A stretch of DNA of 64,000 bases from a virus. The DNA lies in IMG/VR virus record IMGVR_UViG_3300024261_000009, positions 1-64,000 of that record; one strand, 5' to 3'. Below the pieces are notes generated by a model that was not told where the DNA came from, ran no database searches, and was given only the letters and a program-made list of their open reading frames with translations. Positions 2,098-61,167 of this stretch are shown piece after piece (position 1 is the first letter of the stretch; every line of letters begins with the position of its first letter). A program made the translations under genes and the position numbers.

Positions 2098-2754
2098 TTA
2101 TACAGCGAGCAGTTCCCTTAGGGCACGCCTAGCCCTGTGTATGCGAGACTTCACAGCGGCCGGGGATAGGCCCATTCGTTCGCCTAGACTAGCTAGGTCT
2201 GTGCCTTCCATTATCTGACTCCACAGAGGAAACCTGTACCCCTCAGGAAGTTCTTCGATACCTGCGAGGGCTTTCCTTAGCGACTCCCTACCCATAAGCT
2301 GGTCTTCTAGAAGGTAGCTATTTTCAGTAATGCCAATAACGTCGTCTATAGACTGCTCCCCAAGCAGCTTAAGCTCTTTTGCCTCCCTACGCCTCCTAGA
2401 CCTAAGGTGCATTCTTATGGTGTTAGTTCCTATTACGTAGAACCAGGAGCTGAATTTACAGTCTCCTCGAAAACCGCCAATCTTATTAAAGGCTTTTATG
2501 CATGCTTCCTGAACGACATCATCCGCTCCGTTCAAGCCGACAGCTTTTACAGCACGCCACTTAAGCTTGGGTATCAGGGGTTTGATTAGTTTTTCGAAAG
2601 CCCTATGGTCTCCAATTTGAGCCAATTCTAGCAGGGGAGGTTCCACTTCTATCTCCTTAAGGTCCACATAATTAATGTGGTCCCTAAAAGAGTCGGCATC
2701 CATAGGTGGGGCACAGTTACCTACATCTTCGTACATTGGGGTCTTGGCTAACAT
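2098..2754 (-). CDS. ECF-type RNA polymerase sigma factor
   Basis: A 218-residue protein with a sigma region 2 at about residues 50-120 (DHRAFEKLI, then DDVVQEACIKAFNKIGGFRG, FSSWFYVIGTN) and a region 4 HTH at about 165-212 (LPEGYRFPLWSQIMEGTDLASLGERMGLSPAAVKSRIHRARRAL spans this helix set). The short linker between them is typical of ECF sigma factors, which bind core polymerase and direct it to specific promoters. The first 45 residues are an extension with no obvious domain. It reads away from the structured RNA locus at 2758-3486. It may serve the phage polymerase encoded at 56818 onward; this is inference. Confidence 0.85.
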   Translation of the reverse strand: MLAKTPMYEDVGNCAPPMDADSFRDHINYVDLKEIEVEPPLLELAQIGDHRAFEKLIKPLIPKLKWRAVKAVGLNGADDVVQEACIKAFNKIGGFRGDCKFSSWFYVIGTNTIRMHLRSRRRREAKELKLLGEQSIDDVIGITENSYLLEDQLMGRESLRKALAGIEELPEGYRFPLWSQIMEGTDLASLGERMGLSPAAVKSRIHRARRALRELLAV

Positions 2755-2757
2755 TTT

Positions 2758-3486
2758 TCCTCGGGGTTAGGCCCTTCGTTAAGGACACCTAGGTACTTAA
2801 CACTAATTCAATACCGAGAACCTAAAAAGACAACACGAAGTTGTTATAGTTGTTAGCAGACAGCAGAGTTCCTCGGAGTTCGTTTCCAAAGTTCTCTCCG
2901 AGAGAACGAGGAAAAGAATCCGGGAGCTTCTGCAGGCTCGAACAAACTAATAAATGGCTTAGAACCATTAAAACGTCCTACCAAAGAAACGTATCGTTTC
3001 CTACATAGGGCAGCTGTTGTCTTAGTCTTGGTGGGCTCTTAAGTCCCGATCTCTGGGACTTAAGATTTTAAGTTAGTAGAAGCCTGAAAATATCAGGCAC
3101 CAAAAATGACTAGAGATCTGTCTATTTGGATTTTTAAGACTCACGTATTTACGTTCGAAGTTCTACTGCAGAGTTCCGGGACTGAATTTCTTCCTTTCAA
3201 AGAATCTAATTTTGGAACCCAACATAACGTAAAAGGGTGGCGGAAGCCGCTCGTGGCGACCAGGCCGACCCCGGTTAGCACCGGGGAAACACTAAGAAGA
3301 CGTATCGTCTCCGATCCCAGAAGGATCTTAGTGCTGAGTCTAGAACCTCCATAATCACGAACGCGACTATCGGTGGGTTGTTGGATAAAAAACTAAAGAG
3401 AGGTACTATGCGAGAGGTAGACAGGACTTAATAAATTGTACGCGCGTACTAAGCCCCCTAACGACTGCAGGGAGGACATTTTTTAG
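2758..3486 (+). ncRNA. Large structured noncoding RNA candidate
   Basis: About 730 bases without a credible gene, dense in perfect inverted repeats. Those I can read are: 2778-2801 (6 bp); 2830-2844 (5 bp); a 7 bp stem 2869-2875/2907-2913 around a 7 bp hairpin 2891-2907; 2953-2969 (5 bp); 2986-3000 (GAAACG-TAT-CGTTTC); 3037-3065 (11 bp); 3082-3098 (6 bp); 3269-3286 (7 bp, TAGC loop). A three-way junction follows, closed by CACTAAG 3290-3296 and CTTAGTG 3327-3333, holding AGACG-TAT-CGTCT and GATCC-CAGAA-GGATC arms. A plus-strand intrinsic terminator sits at 3454-3484, which sets the strand. An open frame at 3106-3354 has no ribosome site. Known giant phage RNAs (GOLLD, ROOL) are of similar size; homology is not shown. 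A replication origin is an alternative. Confidence 0.7.
3454..3484 (+). terminator. Rho-independent terminator of the structured RNA locus
   Basis: CCCCCT (3454-3459) pairs with AGGG-A-GG (3469-3475), six pairs with one bulged A, followed within four bases by six T (3479-3484). It ends the hairpin-rich stretch and lies before the promoter-like element of the tail operon. Confidence 0.6.
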
Positions 3487-3558
3487 GTTTACCCTAGAGA
3501 GATCTCACAAGGCGGCCAACCTGATAAGAAATCTCTAGCATCAGACTGTTGTCTATTG

Positions 3559-3581
3559 CATACTCTTATACCTGCAAATAA
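3559..3581 (+). promoter_or_regulatory. Shared promoter-like element, tail operon
   Basis: The block from CATACTCTTATACC to GCAAATAA matches the block upstream of the portal (54032-54054) at 17 of 23 positions and resembles the one before the RNA polymerase gene (56757). It lies 75 bases before the chaperone ATG and directly after the upstream terminator. I infer a phage promoter class; no transcription start is known. Confidence 0.45.
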
Positions 3582-3633
3582 GCTAAATTTGCGCATTTAT
3601 GGTCACAACTACAGAAACCTTAAGGAGACTCCA

Positions 3634-4302
3634 ATGCCTCGAAAGTTATCGGATATCGGAAGTAACGGGGGCAGTATGGACCTTGGTTCCGAACTAACCT
3701 CTGACGCTAGTATTACCCCAGAAATAACTCCCAGGGATACTCAAAACCTACGGGGGGAAGTCGAGTCTGATCCCGATGTTTCTCCAGGATCCGAGTCCCC
3801 CGAGGCTTCTGGGACTGCAGAGGAAAACCTGAAAGAGTACCTGGACACGCCGAGGTCCCTGTGGCTAGAAGAGTTAGGGACGCTAAAAGTAACCCCGGAG
3901 GAAGCAGCAAACATCTTTGACGTGGTTATGTCTACCGGCAAGTACCTAGAGACTTACCGGGTTGGGAAAACCGTGGTTAAGATTAGAACACGGACCACAG
4001 TAGACGCTGATCGAACGATAGAAATACTTCAAGAGCAGCGCCCTGAGTCTGCCGCGGTGTACTCACACCTAGTTTCCAGGGTCAACCTTGCTTCGAGTTT
4101 GGTAGAGTACGGAGAAAGTAAATTTCCGCACACCGCCCCCTCGGAGGATAATCGGGAGAGGCTCGACTCGGAGTGGAGGGAGCGTTACCGCTTTTGCGCT
4201 GCTTTACCCGCCCCCGCGTTTTACGCCCTGAGTCAGATCTTACAAAAGTTTGACGAGAAGGTCTCTCTATCTTGTGACGCCAGGAGTCTGGAAAATTTTT
4301 AG
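3634..4302 (+). CDS. Tail assembly chaperone, short frame
   Basis: A 222-residue protein. I chose the ATG at 3634 because TTAAGGAG lies just upstream; the open frame continues further 5' without a ribosome site. The first 75 residues are acidic and low in complexity. Residues about 85-222 form an alpha/beta domain ending in a helix-rich part (ERYRFCAALPAPAFYALSQILQKF). Its position directly before the tape measure, with a slippery site at its stop codon leading into the next frame, is the classic layout of tail assembly chaperones (lambda G/GT type), which coat the tape measure during tail assembly. Assignment rests on context and frameshift rather than on sequence signature. Confidence 0.72.
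   Translation: MPRKLSDIGSNGGSMDLGSELTSDASITPEITPRDTQNLRGEVESDPDVSPGSESPEASGTAEENLKEYLDTPRSLWLEELGTLKVTPEEAANIFDVVMSTGKYLETYRVGKTVVKIRTRTTVDADRTIEILQEQRPESAAVYSHLVSRVNLASSLVEYGESKFPHTAPSEDNRERLDSEWRERYRFCAALPAPAFYALSQILQKFDEKVSLSCDARSLENF
4293..4299 (+). promoter_or_regulatory. Programmed -1 frameshift site A_AAT_TTT
   Basis: The last codons of the short chaperone frame read GAA AAT TTT TAG, so the heptamer A AAT TTT fits the X XXY YYZ rule exactly in frame and abuts the stop codon. Slipping back one base continues AAA TTT TTA GAG and stays open with no stop through to 4640. A small CCCCT/AGGGG hairpin (4350-4366) lies about 50 bases downstream. Confidence 0.75.
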
Positions 4303-13809: not shown

Positions 13810-14514
13810 ATGAATGACATAAAGAAAAAAGATGCCCTCATGTGGAGTACATGGAGAAGTGATCCCTCAAGGGAAAACTTATCAGCCCTTCTAGGCCAGG
13901 TTAACCCTATACTCCAGAAAGAGGTTAACAGGTGGTCCGGTGGGTCGGTATCTTCCCCGGTTCTAAACGTAAACGCTAAGAAGCTCGCTATCCAGGCCTT
14001 CGAGACGTTTGACCCAAACAAGTCCGCCCTAAATACGCACGTAACAAACAATCTCAAGGGGCTCTCCAGAGACCCCTACACCTATGTAAATCCAGCTCGA
14101 ATGCCAGAGCATAGGCAGATAAAGTTTAAAACTTTTACTGACTCTGAGGAGCGCCTCCTAGACACCCTAGGCCGACAGCCCACTGCTCAGGAGATGTCTC
14201 GAGATCTGCGGTGGAGTCTTGCGGAAGTTTCCCGATTCCGGTCTGAATTGCGGAGTGAGTTTTCTACTAGCCAACCAACACCGGCAGCTTTCGACTCGGT
14301 TGACAGGACCGGAGGCGTACTAGCCTACGTTTACCATGATTTGCCCGATGTGGACAAATTGGTGCTAGAACACTCAACAGGTTACGGAGGGGCTACCATA
14401 CTCCCCGCCAAGGACCTAACCAGTTTAACGGGACTCTCCCAGGGCCAGATATCCCACAGCAAGAGAAGAATAAGAAAAGCAATAGAGTCTGTGTCCGGCT
14501 TGGGGGGGTCTTAG
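13810..14514 (+). CDS. Sigma-70-like protein inside the baseplate operon
   Basis: A 234-residue protein. Residues about 55-100 (KKLAIQAFETFDPNKSALNTHVTNNLKGL) match the end of sigma region 2 in style. ARMPEHRQIKFKTF followed by LGRQPTAQEMSRDLRWSLAEVSRF (about 120-150) matches region 3. LTGLSQGQISHSKRRIRKAIE at the C-terminus reads as a region 4 HTH. The first part of region 2 is poorly conserved, so it may be a specialised or degenerate sigma. It sits three bases after the hub gene. A role in late transcription, or a virion-borne factor, is inference. Confidence 0.68.
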   Translation: MNDIKKKDALMWSTWRSDPSRENLSALLGQVNPILQKEVNRWSGGSVSSPVLNVNAKKLAIQAFETFDPNKSALNTHVTNNLKGLSRDPYTYVNPARMPEHRQIKFKTFTDSEERLLDTLGRQPTAQEMSRDLRWSLAEVSRFRSELRSEFSTSQPTPAAFDSVDRTGGVLAYVYHDLPDVDKLVLEHSTGYGGATILPAKDLTSLTGLSQGQISHSKRRIRKAIESVSGLGGS

Positions 14515-29508: not shown

Positions 29509-30836
29509 CAGTTTTTCTCCTCATCCCACGAGGTGGGTCTCCGTAACAACGACCAAAGATCCTGGTACTCTGGTACGTGAAGATCCGCTAAGCTTTTAAA
29601 CTCAAGCCCACGCCAGTTGGTAAGCCTAACCGACAGAGTCTTAGAACCGAGCACATCTATCGATGAAAAGTCTTCTTCCCAAGACCCGTAAAACATCTTA
29701 TTACGCGTGTATTTCCCACTACCTAGCACCCAAGCAAGAATAAGAGACTGCTCCTTAGTCAGGGGGATCTTGTCTCTTTTTAACCGGTGCTCTAGGTGAG
29801 GGTGCTCCTCAATGAATCTCTTTAGGGTGAAGGTCTGCTCTCTGTACGCCCCCCAAGAGCGTACAGTCTTCACCAGGTATTCTCCCTTGCGCTCACTGGG
29901 CGTAACTCGGACAACAGAGCCCTTGTGACCCCTAGGCCCGAGCGCAGAAAGGGTGGCGTCACATCCTATGAGCTGAATCGCGGCATGTATTCCTGGGTTC
30001 TTGTACGTGGGGATAACCTTCCATCGATTTAATACGGAAGCTTTCACAAAGGACTCCAATTCCTGCGGAGAAACCCCTCCTGAGCAACGCTGTCTCCGCC
30101 ACTTGCTGGAAGAATCCTCGCAGTAGCTACGGCCGTAAGAAGCCTCCGACAGAACACAGTTACGGCACTCGCGGTTCCCGAAAGCTCTGCTCTTGCCTGC
30201 GCTTACATTCCGGGCCTTCACTCTCGAGTAGGCTTTTTTTATCGACTGCTCCTTTAAGTCGATAAGCGTAATGCACGGGTACTCCTCACAGAACAGATCG
30301 TCAGTAGCTATAGACGACTTGACTAGGGTCATCCCGGCATGTTTTCCCAGAGAAGAGTCCCAGTCTTCAGTCCCCAAGTTGTTTCCGGTGACGCCCCAAG
30401 TGGTAGTATTAAGAAGCATTTCTGAGATGTCTAGTACTGACTTAGGGATGTTGTCTTGCAAACAGGTTTCCTGGACGTCGCAGGAAGTGCAGCCTTTGTC
30501 CGAAAACTTCAACATACTGGTACAGTTGTCCGTGAACTTTTTTAATTCGTATACATCTCCCATAGACACAACCGAGTAGAGTATCTCTGAGAGTTCCTTA
30601 ATAGACTCCTGTCGGGGCATAACGTCGGTCACTAAGCCGTTGTAGTATACCGCTAGTGGTTTCCCCAAGAAGATACTTAGTTTCTTGGCCGCTTCCACGG
30701 ACTTGTCTAGGGTCTCTCCTCCGTCAGCGTAAACTCCTGAAAGGGTAACCCTCTTTAAAGCGGGTCTGCCGTCCCAACCAACCCCGCTCCAGATGTGTAC
30801 CACTGAGGAAGCCTTAGTTATATTAAGAGTTGTCAT
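29505..30836 (-). CDS. Cys-rich unknown protein next to the reverse transcriptase
   Basis: A 443-residue protein whose ATG lies inside the reverse transcriptase gene (14-base overlap) with GAGGAGG seven bases upstream, so translation is coupled. Two Cys clusters are visible: CTSCDVQETC near residue 115, and a group around residues 227-258 (ECRNCVLS, SYCED, RQRC), which suggest zinc or Fe-S binding. Residues 290-345 contain a beta-rich module (KGSVVRVTPSERKGEYLVKTVRSWG) reminiscent of small KOW or SH3-like folds, but weakly. Nucleic acid binding is inferred only from the Cys clusters and context. Confidence 0.6.
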   Translation of the reverse strand: MTTLNITKASSVVHIWSGVGWDGRPALKRVTLSGVYADGGETLDKSVEAAKKLSIFLGKPLAVYYNGLVTDVMPRQESIKELSEILYSVVSMGDVYELKKFTDNCTSMLKFSDKGCTSCDVQETCLQDNIPKSVLDISEMLLNTTTWGVTGNNLGTEDWDSSLGKHAGMTLVKSSIATDDLFCEEYPCITLIDLKEQSIKKAYSRVKARNVSAGKSRAFGNRECRNCVLSEASYGRSYCEDSSSKWRRQRCSGGVSPQELESFVKASVLNRWKVIPTYKNPGIHAAIQLIGCDATLSALGPRGHKGSVVRVTPSERKGEYLVKTVRSWGAYREQTFTLKRFIEEHPHLEHRLKRDKIPLTKEQSLILAWVLGSGKYTRNKMFYGSWEEDFSSIDVLGSKTLSVRLTNWRGLEFKSLADLHVPEYQDLWSLLRRPTSWDEEKNW

Positions 30837-31923
30837 ACTTGTCCTCCTCTTCCCAGAGTCGTGTTTTTCTAGTATCTTCCTTATCCAGAGCGCGCTTAAA
30901 ACTTGCCTGAAGGCACTCGTTCCTTGCCGGAGCTAGGACTTGACCAACGTAGCTAAGTTTGCCTCTTAGGTGGGATATTAGGGCTTCTGTGGTGGTTATC
31001 TTAAAGTTTACCTTTTCTCCGGCTCTCTTGACCTGAGACTCGAAACCGTACTTCTCGCAGTTATTAAGGATGGCCCGGAGGTCTTTGTACTTTTCACGCC
31101 TTATATTGGCGTGTTCGTTAACTACTAGACCTAGAACTTCCTGCCTCCGCCATTTAGGCGCTACACGAATCTTGTGTACCCGCCACCCGGTTTTTTTAAT
31201 AATACTGATTACCGATTCTTTAAAACGGTCAACTTCTGTCCTTGGAAGAACTTGTGGGTGGGTCAGGTAGATATTATCGGAGTACCGTATATACTCCCAC
31301 CCCAACGACCGCGCGATTCGTAGTACTTCCTGGTCAAAGAAAAGGTCAGCCACCCGATTCGCGACCGTAGGGGATATGGGCGTGCCCTGGGGCATAAACC
31401 GTCTTCCCCTGGAGTCGGTACAACAGCACAGTTGTGCCATAAGGCTGGAAACCTGTCGGTTGTAGCCTACTGTTGTAAACATCTTCCTTACCTGGCTCAG
31501 TTTTATGGACCCGAAGAAATTCTTTAGGTCCATAGTTAGCAGTATACCCGCCCCCGCACATTTCCGAGCGGCATCGGCGGTACGCCGCCCCTTCTCGTAC
31601 GCCGCCACGTGGTCCCCAACAGGGATTTTCTTCACAAAGTTCCTGTCTAAGGACCGCTGCACCGCTTTGAGTCTCTCGTCCGGAACATGAATGGGTCGCC
31701 TCTTACCCGCCCGCCCAGACTTTCCCCGTTTGGCCACGCTATGCTCTTCATACATAGAACCGCTATGCCCCGCAGGTACTTGGGATCCTCTAATTAGCCA
31801 CCACAGCGTTTTATTTCGTATCCCCAGATTTAGGGCTAGAGTGAAGTCATCTATCGCTGTGGGAAGGCCCTCGTTAGGTCTAGTTAGACCAATCTCTTCT
31901 ATAACAGTGCTTTTGTAAGCCAT
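30823..31923 (-). CDS. Retron-type reverse transcriptase with YSDN motif
   Basis: A 366-residue reverse transcriptase with a GAGGAG ribosome site. Motifs in order: RRPIHVPDERLKAVQR (75-90), AYEKGRRTADAAR (108-120), the catalytic MDLKNFFGS with Asp132, MPQGTPISPTVANR (177-190), YIRYSDN with Asp216 (211-217), GWRVHKIRV, then RQEVLGLVVNEHANIRREKYKDLRAIL split over about 265-292, and LRGKLSYVGQV near 330. The last two blocks are typical of retron and related bacterial RTs. The usual YxDD reads YSDN: the second Asp is Asn217, so activity may be altered. No fused nuclease, maturase or integrase domain. No msr/msd-sized spacer flanks it; it sits in a coupled five-gene operon. Confidence 0.88.
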   Translation of the reverse strand: MAYKSTVIEEIGLTRPNEGLPTAIDDFTLALNLGIRNKTLWWLIRGSQVPAGHSGSMYEEHSVAKRGKSGRAGKRRPIHVPDERLKAVQRSLDRNFVKKIPVGDHVAAYEKGRRTADAARKCAGAGILLTMDLKNFFGSIKLSQVRKMFTTVGYNRQVSSLMAQLCCCTDSRGRRFMPQGTPISPTVANRVADLFFDQEVLRIARSLGWEYIRYSDNIYLTHPQVLPRTEVDRFKESVISIIKKTGWRVHKIRVAPKWRRQEVLGLVVNEHANIRREKYKDLRAILNNCEKYGFESQVKRAGEKVNFKITTTEALISHLRGKLSYVGQVLAPARNECLQASFKRALDKEDTRKTRLWEEEDKYDNS

Positions 31924-31934
31924 TACTACTCTCC

Positions 31935-31949
31935 TCAGCGTATCGCTGA
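31935..31949 (-). promoter_or_regulatory. Triloop hairpin in the reverse-transcriptase leader
   Basis: TCAGCG-TAT-CGCTGA (plus-strand sense) lies in the 27-base gap before the reverse transcriptase. In the mRNA the hairpin ends where the GAGGAG ribosome site begins, so folding or protein binding could control translation. The apical CG-TAT-CG is the same as in two hairpins of the structured RNA locus (2986-3000 and 3298-3310). Confidence 0.45.
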
Positions 31950-31950
31950 A

Positions 31951-32733
31951 TTACGCCCCTGTGTGCCAACTAACAAGCCTCCCAGCTTCCTTGATGGTTT
32001 CCTCAGGGTACATTTGTGTAGGCGCGTTGAAGGACATCTCAGAGAGACATACGTCTCCCCCCAGCTGGCAGTCTCCGTGCATATGTTCTAATAATCTAGG
32101 ACAAGCCCTGCAGGGCGGAGTGATGATATCATCAAGTATCTTTAACTCTGCGCTGTCGGGTACTATGGGAGCGCCTTTAAGAATCGCTTTGTGGGGCCAA
32201 TCTATATCCCTCGCCCTGGAACCTCCGTTTTCTTTAGCACCTCCCCAGGTCCACTTCTCATTTGCTAGGTATGAGGGCCTAGAGTGGTTAGATCCCCCCT
32301 TGCTAGATAGGTTCAATATGGGGATAAGAAGTCTCCAGTCCTCAGCGGTCCCGTCGTCTAAGGCCTGGCATAAAGCCTGTATCTCTGGAGATCCGCCCTC
32401 CAAGTGTGGGAGTATTGACCTCCCCACCCCCGTGCGGGATCTTCCAGCCGAACCTCGTTTTTCTCGCCTTTTGTATTCGTTCTCGTTGGTAAGGATAATG
32501 AAACCGGGAAGCTTTTTGGACGGACCTCTTCGACCCGCCTCTCTTGATACGGTTTCGTCAATGTGGAGCTTCTCCAGAAGGCTTCTAACAACCCCCTTAA
32601 TAGGCAACACGAGGTTTATAGGGGTTAGGCTTTGAGCCCTGATTGTCGCCTCCTTGCGGAAAATATACACCCTGTCGAAGGGAAACTTTCGTCCGGCAGC
32701 ATACCGCTTTATCTTTAGGCATATTATACTCAT
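31951..32733 (-). CDS. Unknown protein upstream of the reverse transcriptase, with Cys cluster
   Basis: A 260-residue protein whose ATG overlaps the preceding stop (ATGA). It is basic in the first 110 residues, with segments such as RRGPSKKLPGFIIL and KRREKRGSAGRSRTGVGRS, which could contact nucleic acid. Near residue 210 it has a Cys/His group (PPCRACPRLLEHMHGDC, then GGDVC) able to bind zinc or an Fe-S cluster. No known family is recognised. Its place directly before the reverse transcriptase in one transcript makes it a candidate partner. Confidence 0.6.
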   Translation of the reverse strand: MSIICLKIKRYAAGRKFPFDRVYIFRKEATIRAQSLTPINLVLPIKGVVRSLLEKLHIDETVSREAGRRGPSKKLPGFIILTNENEYKRREKRGSAGRSRTGVGRSILPHLEGGSPEIQALCQALDDGTAEDWRLLIPILNLSSKGGSNHSRPSYLANEKWTWGGAKENGGSRARDIDWPHKAILKGAPIVPDSAELKILDDIITPPCRACPRLLEHMHGDCQLGGDVCLSEMSFNAPTQMYPEETIKEAGRLVSWHTGA

Positions 32734-37603: not shown

Positions 37604-38806
37604 CTAGAGACCTATTTCAGACTCCACAGCCTCCAGGGTCTGGCTTTGGTTCTTAATAGCCTCTATATAGTCTGGCGTTGTAGCCAGCCTTTTATTTAGT
37701 AACCGAAGATACTGTCGGTCTTCCTGAGACCCACAGGCTTGGTGAAACTCAGAGAACAGTTGTCCTCGAATTTGGTCTGGTAGATCCAGGCAGAATTTAC
37801 CTAGATTAGCGGCCAAACTCTTGCTTGGGTTGGGTTTATTGCTAACCATGACGCGGGCGATGTTTCCCACTAAGGTGGTCACCTTGTCTACCCCACCTTC
37901 CTCCAAAGCTAACTTAACTCTTTTTGGAAGATCTTCCTTGGAGCAATAATCTTCGATTATTTCCCGAGGCCCGATAACCATCTCCCTGTGCCGGATAAAG
38001 TCGAATAGACTATCGGTCATTCCCTGACCTATTAGGGACACCATGACAGTGTCTATTTCCGACAGGCTATCCCTAACTGCGCCTATTTCGCAATCAGTAT
38101 GCTGCATAAGAATACTTACGTCCTCCCACGCGGCAGGGTTTGAGTAAACTTGCTCAGCAGCTCGAGCGGCCGTGTCCAGCAAGTGGTTAGGATTAGTCTC
38201 GATATAGTCCACCACTATCGGGTGAAACTCATTCTCCCGAGCGTATTCAAGCCAAGCCCTGCTGTCTTCTCTAACACATAACCACTTGACCCTGCGTCGA
38301 AATGCGTGGTCAGTTTCCAGCTCATTGACTGAGTAGTCCCCACCACTTGGGTTCTGAGCGATTGCTATGTGCCACCCGTCAGGCAGCTTGAAGCTGCCCG
38401 TTCCACGTTGATCCATGAACGCGAATACCGCCGCAGCGGTGGGAGCGGAGGCTCTGTTAACCTCCTCGAAAACCAAGATGCCCTTGTCATGTTTCTTGGT
38501 CATCTCATGGAGACGAATGTCGATCAGGTTTTCGTAGTAGTTACCGTTCTCGGATCTCCAGGGAAGACCTGCGATATCCTCGGGGGGGACCACCTGGGAG
38601 TAGTAGTCAAGGTACCCCCAGCTGTTCTCCTCACAGATCTGCTTGTAAAGCTGGGTTTTGCCTATCCCAGCCTCACCGACTAAGCAGGGAACCTTATCAA
38701 TAGCAAATAGCTGTAGAACAGCCTTCTTTGCCTGCGGTAAACTCTTGATTCCCACGCCGAGTTTTTCCCAGAACTTGTTAACTGAGTCGCCATTTAAGTT
38801 AGACAT
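37604..38806 (-). CDS. MoxR-type AAA+ ATPase
   Basis: A 400-residue AAA+ protein. Walker A is GEAGIGKT (44-51), Walker B ILVFEEVNRA (about 109-118), sensor 1 IAIAQNP (about 148) and an arginine-finger region follows near FRRRVKW. This is the MoxR subgroup, which works with VWA-domain proteins; a VWA partner is encoded at 32730. The C-terminal 200 residues are helical without a known domain. AGAGAGGAA lies before the ATG. Confidence 0.85.
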   Translation of the reverse strand: MSNLNGDSVNKFWEKLGVGIKSLPQAKKAVLQLFAIDKVPCLVGEAGIGKTQLYKQICEENSWGYLDYYSQVVPPEDIAGLPWRSENGNYYENLIDIRLHEMTKKHDKGILVFEEVNRASAPTAAAVFAFMDQRGTGSFKLPDGWHIAIAQNPSGGDYSVNELETDHAFRRRVKWLCVREDSRAWLEYARENEFHPIVVDYIETNPNHLLDTAARAAEQVYSNPAAWEDVSILMQHTDCEIGAVRDSLSEIDTVMVSLIGQGMTDSLFDFIRHREMVIGPREIIEDYCSKEDLPKRVKLALEEGGVDKVTTLVGNIARVMVSNKPNPSKSLAANLGKFCLDLPDQIRGQLFSEFHQACGSQEDRQYLRLLNKRLATTPDYIEAIKNQSQTLEAVESEIGL

Positions 38807-54031: not shown

Positions 54032-54054
54032 CATATACTTATGCCAGCAAAAAC
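54032..54054 (+). promoter_or_regulatory. Shared promoter-like element, portal gene
   Basis: CATATACTTATGCC followed by AGCAAAAAC matches the element before the tail operon (3559-3581) at 17 of 23 positions. It lies 47 bases before the portal ATG in the 94-base divergent gap. A GGAGG ribosome site follows at the expected place. Confidence 0.5.
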
Positions 54055-56775: not shown

Positions 56776-56817
56776 TAGGGGCGGTATTTTTGCTCCGATG
56801 CCCGCTTGGAGACCCTG

Positions 56818-59800
56818 ATGAAAGATTTAACCCCCGTTGTAATGAACCCCTACGACCGTAGGGATAAAATCAGAACCTCCGCCATCCAAGGAGTGGAAAG
56901 CCTATTTCCAATTCTAGGAGACCATAGAGATCTAGAGGTAAACAACCTTCGGGTAGATAAGAAAGACTACTCCGCTTCAGATATAAAGGACGCTGTTTTA
57001 TCTGGGAGAACTCTTGGGGAGCAACTGAAAGCGGACGTGACTATCCGGGATAAAAACGGGCAGGTTATAGACGTAAAAAAGAACCACTCTCTAATGAGAG
57101 TACCCTACTTCACCCCGCAGAACACTTTCGTGGTCAAGGGAAACGAGTACGTAGTTAGACACCAGCTGAGGACTATGCCTGGGGTATACACTCGAAAAAG
57201 AGGGAATGGTGAACTTGAGGCTAGCTTTAACTTAGCTAAGGGCTCCAATTTTCGTCTTAGTATGGACCCGGAAAAAGGTCACATGAACATGGAGTACGGA
57301 TCTTCGAAAATACCCTTGTATCCGGTACTTAGAGGCATGGGAATGACTCACACGGATATATCAAAGCAGTGGGGTTCTGGTGTAGCCAACCAAAACCAGG
57401 ATGCGTTTGACCCTAAGAGGGACAAACACGTAGACCGGCTGTATAAGAAACTGGTACCGCAGAGGAAGGTGGACTCTTCCCTAAATACAGGGGAAAAGGT
57501 TTCTGTTATACTGGATAAGTATTCCAACACACTCTTAGATAAAGAGACTACTAAGAAAACTTTGGGGGAAGCCCACACTAGCGTCACTCCCAGGAGCTTA
57601 CTCGCGGCAAGCAAAAAATTACTGCGAGTATACAAGGGGGAGGCGACCTCGGACGAGAGAGACAGCCTCGAGTACCAGACTCTCCACTCCCCTGAAGATT
57701 TCATCAGGGAACGCTTAGAGCATTCGGGCAGAAATATGCGGTGGAAGTTGAAATCAAAGCTAGACTTAACGTCTAAGCCGGAAATTAGTAAGGTTCTGCC
57801 CTCGTCTACGTTCACAAAGCCTGTGGACTCCTTCATAACCACCTCTCAGATAACCACCTCCCCGACTCAGATAAACCCCATTGCGTTAATTAACGATGCC
57901 AGCAGCATTACCCGATTCGGGGAAGGGGGTATCGGAAGTGAGAGAGCTATCCCCGCGGACGTCCGAACTTTACACGCGTCCCACCTGGGAGCTTTGGACC
58001 CCTTCGGCACTCCAGAGAGCAGCAAATCCGGAGTAGATGTTCGGGCGGCTCAGCATTTATATAAGGATGATAGGGGGCGTCTTCACACCATACTCAAAAA
58101 CGTCAGGACTTCTAAGAACCAGTTTGTTCCCGTGTCGGAAATACCTAGGTCCACTGTGGCGTTTTCTAACCAGAACACCCTTTCGGGTAGTGTGGACGTA
58201 CTGCACAAGGGCAAGGTAACCAAGGTGTCCCCGGGTAAGGTTGATTACCAGGTACCCCACTCCTCGGTTCTATACGGAGTATCGACTAATCTTATACCTT
58301 TCCTAGATTCTACTCAGGGGAACCGGGCAATAATGGCCTCAAAACACGTAGCCCAGGCTGTGCCTCTGATCGGACGAGAAGCGCCTTTAATCCAGGTCGG
58401 GGCCCCCGAAAACAGTGGGTACTCCTCGATAGAGGAACTGGTGGCTAAAACTATCGTCTTGCCCACATCTCCGGTGTCGGGAAGGGTTACGCGCGTAGAC
58501 GATGATTTCATCCATATAAGAGATTCAAAAGGATCTCCCCACAAGGTTGTCCGATTCAAAGACTATCCCCTTGCGTCAAAGACGCATATAAACGAAACAC
58601 CTGTGGTCCGCAGGGGTGATAAAGTAAAGAAGGGCCAGGTTCTTTCTGACAATAACTACACGGTAGACGGGGTCCTAGCCCTGGGCAAAAACCTAAACGT
58701 GGGCTACATGGCCTACAGAGGTTTAAACTCAAATGACGCAGTGGTTATCTCAGATGCAGCCGCGGATAAGCTTACCTCGGAGCATATGGTCAAACGAGTC
58801 CTAGTGCTGGATAACGACCTCTCCCTAGGGGACAAGAAGCACGCGGCAAACTTCGCTTCGAGGTTTACTCGGGATCAGTATAGTAACTTGAAATCCGGCG
58901 TTGTTACTCCAGGAACCGTCTTGAGAAGTGGGGACCCTATAGCAACCGCAGTTAGAAAAGCCCCTCCTAGCGTTGAAAATGAAATGTTTGGTAGGATACA
59001 TAAGTCCTTGAGAAGAGAGTACGTGGACGACAGTCTCGTCTGGGAGGATCCCGAAGACGGAGAGGTTGTTGATGTAAAACAAACGGGCAACAGGTTAGCA
59101 GTAACTATAAAGTCCAAAAAAAGGATGAAGGTTGGTGATAAACTAACGAATCGGTACGGGGCTAAGGGCGTAGTATCTAAAATAATTCCCGATGCAGAGA
59201 TGATCCAGGATGCTTCGGGGAGCCCTATTGACCTACTATGGTCTTCCTCGGGTGTCATAAGTCGAATAAATCCAGGCCAGATTGTGGAGACCGCTGCCGC
59301 TAAGGTGGCTAAGAAGCAGGGCAAACCAATCGTTGTCCAAAACTTTTCCAACAGAGATAACGTTCAGTGGGCCAAAAAGTTACTAAAGGATAATGGCCTA
59401 ACCGACAAGGAAGAGGTTACCGATCCAATCACGGGAAAGAAGATACCAAATATCATGGTGGGTCCTCAGTATGTCTATAAGGGCTTTAAGTCTACGGATA
59501 CTAATTTCTCTGCTCGAGGGGCGGGAGGGTCGTACGACATTAACCAGCAGCCTGGGAGAGGAGGCATCTCTGGTGCCAAGGGGATGGGCAGGATGGAAAT
59601 TAACGGACTGCTTGCACACAACGCACGAGACATCCTAAGGGAAAATGCGGTTATAAAGGGCACCAGAAACACTGAGTACTGGAATGCGGTTAGACTCGGG
59701 CTACCCATCCCTTCTGCGACGGCTCCTTTCGCGCACAATAAGTTTGTTTCTATGCTTACCGGAGCCGGTATGCGAATGAATCGAGAGGGAAACCAGGTCA

Positions 59801-61167
59801 GCATGGCCCCTCTGACAAATAGAGATATAAGGAAGATGTCTTCCGGGGTTATTACTTCCGGGAAGATGGTTCGAGCCAAGGACCTGCGTCCCGAAGCGGG
59901 AGGACTCTTTGACCCTGGCGTGACAGGAGGGTTAACGGGGCAGAAGTGGTCTCACATAGAGTTAGACGAGCCCGTAGTCAGTCCTGTTTACCGGGACAGT
60001 GTCCGAAGAATACTGGGCTTTACTAACACAGAGCTCCAGGATACCGTGGAAAAAAAGGGCGGGGGGTTCATTAGAGAATCTCTTAAGTCTATAGATATCG
60101 ACGGTAAGATAAAATCTCTCACTAGGGAAGTTAGAACCAGATCTCCTGGGTCCTCTCAAGATGATGCTCTTAAGCAACTCAAGGCGTTTAAGGCCTTGAA
60201 GTCCCGAGGCGTTCGGCCCGAGGATGCCTACATTCTGGACGCGTTTCCCGTTTTGCCTCCTCAGTTTAGGCCTATAGTGCCAGGGCCTAAAGGAGACCTC
60301 TTAGTATCCGACGTTAACCACCTGTATAAGGACCTAGCCTTAGCTAATGAAAAGATGAAGGAAGCTAAGTCCTTAGGTCTTCCTGATAAAGATATAGGGG
60401 CCATGAGAGCCCATCTTTCAGACGCTGTTGGAGCTGTCGCGGGGCTTAACGATCCCGTTACCGACAAATCTCGTGCCGCGGCCAAGAAGGGGATTATTAA
60501 TACAATAGCGGGAACAAAAAGAGGCTTTTATAACGGGAAACTTATTAGTAAAAGATTAGATCTAACTGGGAGAGGAACCGCTGCACCAGACCCTTCCCTA
60601 GGTCTGGATGAAGTGGGTCTTCCCGAGGAGATGGCTTGGTCTATGTACCAGCCCTTTACGATAGGTAACCTGGTTAGGAGAGGGCACAAAGCTGTCCGGG
60701 CTAAAGAACTCGTAGAAAATAGGGACCCTATAGCCCGGGAGGCTTTATCTAGAGAGATTTCTCAAAGACCCGTGATTCTTAACAGAGCTCCCAGTCTGCA
60801 TAAGTACAGCCTAGTTTCCGCGTACCCCAAGATGATCCCCGGAAAAACTATAAAGGTTAACCCCTTCATTGAGGCGGGCATGAATTTGGACTACGATGGG
60901 GACGCGCTTCAGTTGCACCTACCAGCAACTCCTGGGGGAGTATCTGATGCTAAGAAGATGTTAATATCGGAAAACATCATGGGAACAAGGAATCGAGACT
61001 CTGTTCAGGTATTTCCAGAACTAGAATCCGTTATTGGACTGTATAAGGGGACAACGGGAACCTCCAGCAGGCCTATGCAAACGTTCTCTTCGCGCCGGGA
61101 GGCACTGGAAGCATACCGTAAGGGAGATATTTCTTTAAAAGACCCTGTAAGGCTAGTAAACGATTAA
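56818..61167 (+). CDS. RNA polymerase beta / beta-prime N-terminal fusion
   Basis: A 1449-residue protein from the ATG at 56818 (GGAG seven bases upstream; a TTG 12 bases earlier is also open). Residues 1 to about 990 are beta-like: NDAVVISDAAADKLTSE, KVGDKLTNRYGAKGVVSKI (about 770), DLLWSSSGVISRINPGQI, and INQQPGRGGISGAKGMGRME. From about 1000 it is beta-prime: GGLFDPGVTGG, AFPVLPPQFRPIVPG, VILNRAPSLHKYS, and the metal-binding NLDYDGD at 1356-1362 with all three catalytic Asp. It ends 87 residues later, before the bridge helix. The rest of beta-prime is a separate gene at 63071. This is phage core polymerase; no alpha subunit is seen. Confidence 0.93.
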   Translation: MKDLTPVVMNPYDRRDKIRTSAIQGVESLFPILGDHRDLEVNNLRVDKKDYSASDIKDAVLSGRTLGEQLKADVTIRDKNGQVIDVKKNHSLMRVPYFTPQNTFVVKGNEYVVRHQLRTMPGVYTRKRGNGELEASFNLAKGSNFRLSMDPEKGHMNMEYGSSKIPLYPVLRGMGMTHTDISKQWGSGVANQNQDAFDPKRDKHVDRLYKKLVPQRKVDSSLNTGEKVSVILDKYSNTLLDKETTKKTLGEAHTSVTPRSLLAASKKLLRVYKGEATSDERDSLEYQTLHSPEDFIRERLEHSGRNMRWKLKSKLDLTSKPEISKVLPSSTFTKPVDSFITTSQITTSPTQINPIALINDASSITRFGEGGIGSERAIPADVRTLHASHLGALDPFGTPESSKSGVDVRAAQHLYKDDRGRLHTILKNVRTSKNQFVPVSEIPRSTVAFSNQNTLSGSVDVLHKGKVTKVSPGKVDYQVPHSSVLYGVSTNLIPFLDSTQGNRAIMASKHVAQAVPLIGREAPLIQVGAPENSGYSSIEELVAKTIVLPTSPVSGRVTRVDDDFIHIRDSKGSPHKVVRFKDYPLASKTHINETPVVRRGDKVKKGQVLSDNNYTVDGVLALGKNLNVGYMAYRGLNSNDAVVISDAAADKLTSEHMVKRVLVLDNDLSLGDKKHAANFASRFTRDQYSNLKSGVVTPGTVLRSGDPIATAVRKAPPSVENEMFGRIHKSLRREYVDDSLVWEDPEDGEVVDVKQTGNRLAVTIKSKKRMKVGDKLTNRYGAKGVVSKIIPDAEMIQDASGSPIDLLWSSSGVISRINPGQIVETAAAKVAKKQGKPIVVQNFSNRDNVQWAKKLLKDNGLTDKEEVTDPITGKKIPNIMVGPQYVYKGFKSTDTNFSARGAGGSYDINQQPGRGGISGAKGMGRMEINGLLAHNARDILRENAVIKGTRNTEYWNAVRLGLPIPSATAPFAHNKFVSMLTGAGMRMNREGNQVSMAPLTNRDIRKMSSGVITSGKMVRAKDLRPEAGGLFDPGVTGGLTGQKWSHIELDEPVVSPVYRDSVRRILGFTNTELQDTVEKKGGGFIRESLKSIDIDGKIKSLTREVRTRSPGSSQDDALKQLKAFKALKSRGVRPEDAYILDAFPVLPPQFRPIVPGPKGDLLVSDVNHLYKDLALANEKMKEAKSLGLPDKDIGAMRAHLSDAVGAVAGLNDPVTDKSRAAAKKGIINTIAGTKRGFYNGKLISKRLDLTGRGTAAPDPSLGLDEVGLPEEMAWSMYQPFTIGNLVRRGHKAVRAKELVENRDPIAREALSREISQRPVILNRAPSLHKYSLVSAYPKMIPGKTIKVNPFIEAGMNLDYDGDALQLHLPATPGGVSDAKKMLISENIMGTRNRDSVQVFPELESVIGLYKGTTGTSSRPMQTFSSRREALEAYRKGDISLKDPVRLVND

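Follow-up and report, generated by a model that had tools for sequence, protein, structure and literature searches.

A stretch of about 730 bases near one end of a phage genome record is crowded with inverted repeats and holds no apparent gene, which raises the question of whether it gives rise to a large structured RNA and, if so, from which strand and between which ends. We examined it within a window comprising the first 64 kb of a 117,232-bp IMG/VR virus record. The analysis leans, somewhat beyond even chances, towards a discrete structured noncoding RNA of ~735 nt that would be transcribed early from the minus strand and act in trans or as a scaffold.

A gene-free, hairpin-rich gap at a module junction

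The record carries genes of a tailed phage (terminase, DNA polymerase A, a primase-like protein, and a baseplate protein) together with a 1,453-aa protein that resembles RNA polymerase beta and beta'. Among named phages, Salmonella phage Arash and Vibrio phages D69/D181 come nearest. The locus lies between a sigma-factor gene (minus) and a divergent tail operon (plus), where the early module (minus) meets the late one (plus). No tRNA genes were detected within the 64-kb window, leaving the locus without a tRNA neighbour, and the sole tRNA detected in the record was a tRNA-Met at ~105.3 kb. The genes that matter below are the following.

2098-2754, minus: sigma-70 family (ECF-type) factor gene with its ATG at 2754, downstream of the predicted RNA
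3634-4302, plus: g3634, which opens the divergent tail operon and is conserved in relatives
30823-31923, minus: retron-like reverse transcriptase (RT), a core gene of the lineage (NCBIfam match at E 3e-43, under the curated cut-off)
56806-61167, plus: single protein with similarity to RNA polymerase beta and beta', common to Salmonella phage Arash and Vibrio phages D69/D181

A late-module protein at 13810-14514 (plus) showed weak similarity to sigma-70 region 3, has homologues in three related phages (G027, G002, and G014), and is possibly a second sigma-like factor. Elsewhere in the record, perfect tandem duplications were seen at 78268-78393 and 69133-69236, with offsets of 60 and 54 bases.

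The gap between the two divergent genes (2755-3633) is the longest stretch of the 117-kb record to lack a credible gene, and noncoding gaps elsewhere in this phage are few and short. The ORFs inside it scored -0.21 to +0.01 bits/codon in codon usage, versus a median of 0.14 for real genes, and resembled wrong frames. These scores agree with the first-pass annotation, which had seen no credible gene in 2758-3486. A coding remnant was considered separately and was ruled out by codon usage. Structure was in excess. Perfect hairpins of at least 6 bp numbered 8 in the 879-nt gap versus a genome mean of 2.3 (S.D. 1.7), and folding of 2758-3486 surpassed that of dinucleotide shuffles on both strands, with z values of -4.2 (plus) and -5.8 (minus). 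The unusual hairpin richness that had been read from the letters was borne out by both measures. Its companion claim, that coding windows are free of such hairpins, held nearly throughout, as the gap ranked second among 266 windows, with window 72436 holding 10.

Promoter, strand, and ends of the predicted RNA

Searches of viral contigs with the sigma or g3634 protein alone returned no relative, and a search with the MPE protein returned distant relatives only. A syntenic lineage emerged once TerL and sigma-region-3-like protein alignments were used instead. Two of its members, G002 and G014 (190 and 180 kb), encode a terminase 48% identical to that of our phage. G027 (161 kb; terminase 62%), in which most core genes are collinear with ours, is the one close relative with the locus, and G028 is an identical fragment of G027. 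The locus was absent from a 7.4-kb contig (L010; TerL 62%), and further scans and GTDB genomes added no relatives with the locus. No homologue of the sigma-factor gene was found in the relatives searched.

The upstream regions of G027 contained a motif, CGCAAATC-N13/14-GGCATAAGT, on the minus strand ahead of early genes, and one copy lies just upstream of g3634, pointing leftward through the structured stretch; the syntenic G027 promoter is at 79212-79242 (minus). A promoter matrix was built from G027 promoters only and then applied to the genome of the window's phage. The top two matches each fall in intergenic DNA and precede a gene on the minus strand, the strand they lie on themselves: one is at 54037, upstream of the SNF2 helicase gene by 53 nt, and the second-best is at 3564, within the locus. 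The latter scored 18.4 versus 17.9 for the best match in three shuffled genomes, and because this is barely above chance, the case for the promoter rests on its position, its orientation and strand, and its synteny. The -10 part of the motif, GG[CT]ATA[AG]G, is lineage-wide, and its intergenic copies fell on the minus strand in 12/12 cases in G027, 13/14 in G002, and 5/5 in G014; our own phage has 4 on the minus strand and 0 on the plus strand. From the strand and the gene content served, we infer that these promoters act early. A scan for sigma-70-type promoters found none in the stretch. The features of the predicted RNA and its flanks are listed here.

3564-3593, minus: predicted early phage promoter, CGCAAATT - 13 nt - GGTATAAGA, fitting the G027 promoter consensus
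2822-3557, minus: predicted discrete structured noncoding RNA of ~735 nt, from the promoter, U-tract terminator, end-to-end helix, and fold z
3547-3554, minus: 5' strand of the closing helix P1, AGACAACA, pairing with 2828-2835
2828-2835, minus: 3' strand of P1, UGUUGUCU, continuing into the U tract and pairing with 3547-3554
2823-2849, minus: terminator-like hairpin with U5 (ACAAC-UUCGU-GUUGU C UUUUU A) and a weak stem
2850-2945, minus: long imperfect hairpin near the 3' end, 75% self-complementary
2984-3002, minus: triloop hairpin CG(AUA)CG, copy 2, 7 bp in the MFE, -5.7 kcal/mol
3037-3065, minus: 11-bp perfect hairpin with loop AGAGAUC, complementary to GAUCUCU at 3112-3118 and 3498-3504
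3269-3286, minus: 7-bp hairpin CCCCGGU-GCUA-ACCGGGG, similar to CCGGUGCAAACCGG in G027
3290-3333, minus: three-way junction in the minus-strand MFE and centroid
3296-3312, minus: triloop hairpin CG(AUA)CG, copy 1, 7 bp, -6.5 kcal/mol
2785-2826, minus: 42-nt element past the terminator, a 74% match to G027 38636-38677

The predicted 5' end (3557) was placed ~7 nt past the -10, and the 3' end at the minus-strand U tract (2828-2824). P1 comprises 8 bp with a pair probability of ~0.95 and p of 0.003-0.005 versus shuffles and random 30-mer pairs, and the hairpin at 2823-2849 reached -4.0 kcal/mol (z -3.3). A U tract followed by AG likewise closes the G014, G012, and G002 117611 loci described below. 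Transcription would run leftward, early in infection, from a promoter of the phage's own early type (3593-3564) and would end at the U-tract terminator at ~2822; the 5' and 3' ends would pair as the 8-bp helix and close the whole molecule.

The fold also differed between strands. The z value on the minus versus the plus strand was -6.2 versus -4.8 for 2755-3555, -3.2 versus -0.9 for the promoter-proximal 331 nt, -5.4 versus -3.3 for the G027 counterpart, and -5.3 versus -4.4 between the predicted ends (2822-3557). G-U pairs extended 5 hairpins on the minus strand and 2 on the plus strand. Each of these strand and end signals is modest, and jointly they favour a minus-strand RNA of ~735 nt.

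Within the predicted RNA, the three-way junction proposed earlier at 3290-3333 was present. A pseudoknot is possible between the loop of the 11-bp hairpin and GAUCUCU at either 3112-3118 or 3498-3504; the loop match at 3048-3054 was spotted by eye, and the automatic loop-pairing scan found no partner that was unpaired in the MFE. The 42-nt element gave the best match of the locus anywhere in the G027 genome, its target being another noncoding hairpin-rich locus, with p < 0.01 versus within-locus shuffles and ~0.1 genome-wide by score alone. It may serve the sigma gene as a promoter or control site. An 18-base pattern derived from the element matched only G027 plus one unrelated coding site. 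G027 38100-38700 (reverse-complement orientation, within L119) is noncoding and AT-rich and forms a very long imperfect self-complementary rod, which includes a 20-bp perfect helix and has no Rfam match.

A shared promoter motif opens long noncoding gaps across the lineage

In G002 and G014, g3634 abuts an opposite-strand gene, and no such locus or repeats were found there. G027 has 330 nt of noncoding, hairpin-rich sequence ahead of g3634. This counterpart is shorter than our locus and barely alignable, and sequence alignment failed; used as a DNA query, the locus had no match in phages. Short matches collinear with G027 were GAGATCTCT, TTAGTTTTT, and CCGGTGC.AACCGG (minus strand), and similarity to the counterpart gave p of 0.02-0.09 by chaining, which is only suggestive of homology between the two RNAs. 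The first-pass annotation had proposed building a covariance model from related phages and looking for compensatory changes; none of the homologues aligned closely enough to reveal such changes, and model R1, comprising the hairpin and the three-way junction, returned no match in G027, G014, G002, or G012. A candidate plus-strand terminator in the 330-nt stretch of G027 was rejected, its T7 being the A7 of the minus-strand -35 region.

Gaps longer than 400 nt opened with an inward-pointing motif in 7/43 cases in four genomes, versus 0.6 expected. Among these 7 were our own gap, one in G014 (1,132 nt), and two in G002 (535 and 886 nt), and motif-started stretches were likewise found in G012 (529 nt) and G027 (~300 nt). 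The promoter sites of the long noncoding loci in these relatives are as follows.

G014, 94874: lineage motif at a long noncoding locus, the one of 1,132 nt
G002, 118836: lineage motif at a long noncoding locus
G002, 117611: lineage motif at a long noncoding locus
G012, 90595: lineage motif at a long noncoding locus

The G014 locus closes with a strong terminator (-12.6 kcal/mol), and the G012 locus folds with a z of -6.2. The G014 stretch at 93734-94874 (L065 13734-14874, minus) is ~1,100 nt long and hairpin-rich, with 4 or 5 copies of a CG(UAC)CG triloop hairpin. The G002 stretch at 116717-117611 (L075 16717-17611, minus) contains tRNA-like pieces interrupted by a repeated ~70-nt stretch (TTTGCTG.CCGTTTAAGTTTTGG...). 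These pieces were not called as tRNA by ARAGORN and are possibly an intron-bearing or decayed tRNA array. Since this locus holds tRNA-like pieces, the promoter-linked loci need not form one family. Group I introns were seen among the tRNA genes of G002 (L073 3462-3912 and 7531-7713, minus). The loci of G014, G002, and G012 occupy different genomic places, and their sequences do not align with our own. Because the shared promoter opens long noncoding gaps in G014, G002, G012, and G027, early RNAs of ~300-1,100 nt with unrelated sequences seem to be common in this lineage.

Known RNA families and competing explanations

At the gathering score, Rfam gave no match in the window, GOLLD and ROOL included, and a search of 2600-3700 on both strands at E <= 5 gave only chance-level microRNA and small-RNA matches far below the gathering score. 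The loci of the relatives returned nothing beyond tRNAs and group I introns. The covariance-model search for known giant RNAs that had been suggested at first thus ended without a matching family. The stretch has the general character of a large structured phage ncRNA, being noncoding, longer than 300 nt, and better folded than its shuffles. GOLLD and ROOL, to which the first-pass annotation had likened the stretch, are alike in length (659 nt for a ROOL example, often over 800 nt for GOLLD), in being phage-encoded, in an elaborate fold (predicted here), and in having no established function (PMC12286853). GOLLD often lies beside tRNA genes in phages or prophages, whereas the present locus is in a phage and has no adjoining tRNA. 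GOLLD is a homo-oligomeric RNA cage, and high transcript abundance has been reported for ROOL in one strain; the RNA described here is a prediction. The likeness extends to size and phage origin, and not to an Rfam match or a tRNA neighbour. Of the giant phage RNA envisaged earlier, a large structured RNA is the best-supported part; its strand (minus instead of plus) and its ends (2822-3557) differ. Phage K encodes the long intergenic early RNAs lnc001 and lnc002, which lie beside tRNA genes and were detected by RNA-seq, whereas the locus RNA is predicted and belongs to an unrelated phage lineage (PMC9241854).

The main rival, which we hold to be possible though clearly not the better bet, is that the sigma mRNA itself starts at 3557 and, after read-through of the weak terminator, carries the stretch as a very long, structured 5' leader that controls translation or termination of the sigma gene. 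Promoter and sigma ATG (2754) are on the same strand with no gene between them. In the G027 counterpart, which enters its downstream gene, the closing helix takes up the whole Shine-Dalgarno (AGGAG) of that gene; pairing of our own sigma Shine-Dalgarno is partial (unpaired 0.11-0.57). However, the terminator-like hairpin and the shared 42-nt element separate the RNA from the sigma gene, and leaders from this promoter mostly measure 4-65 nt. The downstream genes also differ, sigma in our phage versus a zinc-ribbon-like gene in G027, the former having no homologue in the relatives searched, and a downstream gene that is not conserved argues against a gene-specific leader. A trans-acting or architectural early RNA is favoured over the leader. 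It would exist as a stable transcript, made early, whose action is in trans or as a scaffold and not that of a leader only, for example by binding a protein or the ribosome or by self-assembly as in GOLLD and ROOL.

We also considered, with considerable doubt, that the RNAs of the lineage partner its retron-like RT in trans, as template, cofactor, or titrating decoy. The closest solved structure to this RT is the Ec86 retron RT, and one further hairpin lies next to its gene.

31933-31951, minus: CG(AUA)CG triloop hairpin immediately ahead of the RT gene's Shine-Dalgarno

CG(AUA)CG hairpins whose stem reaches 5 bp or more occur 3 times in the genome, twice in the predicted RNA and once before the RT, all on the same strand, as if, speculatively, bound by one protein. 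The 7-mer of the hairpin is not over-represented (5 in the window versus 3.9 expected). At the equivalent place before the RT of G027, a UUG triloop hairpin is found. Like retron msr-msd RNA, the predicted RNA has end-to-end inverted repeats (a1/a2 in retrons, the 8-bp helix here) and triloop hairpins, and the phage encodes a retron-like RT. However, a retron ncRNA adjoins its RT gene, whereas 2822-3557 sits 27 kb from the RT at 30823-31923, and a retron partner RT has a YxDD active site, whereas that of our phage, as in G027, reads YSDN (YADD in G014 and G002). Typical retron RNAs are several times shorter than the predicted ~735-nt RNA. When the phage genome was compared with itself, no template/variable repeat pair such as a diversity-generating retroelement would have turned up near the RT. 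The RT link is a lead rather than a result.

It is unlikely that the inverted repeats work as DNA, as a replication origin, in recombination, or as protein-binding sites, with the RNA incidental. The locus does lie at the early/late junction and most of its hairpins are nearly perfect inverted repeats, yet G002 and G014 lack such repeats at this junction, the fold is strand-asymmetric, and a promoter stands at one end with a terminator at the other. A giant RNA from the plus strand, terminating at 3486, is quite improbable. Plus-strand folding beats shuffles too, and a GGAA tetraloop hairpin (3235-3252) found on that strand only and a T6 at 3480 would suit it, but the intrinsic terminator formerly placed at ~3455-3486 was not supported: the terminator scan found none there, and a gap of 3 nt separates the T run from the stem, which is bulged. 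The bias of the early -10 motifs, a z of lower magnitude, and an ensemble more diffuse than that of the minus strand also argue against it. That the stretch is degenerate or spacer DNA whose structure is not under selection is the least credible reading, for although an alignable homologue is absent outside G027, the z of -5 to -6, the hairpin excess, the promoter, the end pairing, and the scarcity and shortness of other noncoding gaps in this phage all stand against it.

To our knowledge, few large phage RNAs have been described, and none has an established function. The predicted early ~735-nt RNA would be a new case among these large, unexplained RNAs. Several phages with a long early RNA behind one promoter, their sequences having diverged beyond alignment, would form a comparative system for function, and our results suggest that promoter-anchored searches may find RNAs missed by sequence and covariance searches.
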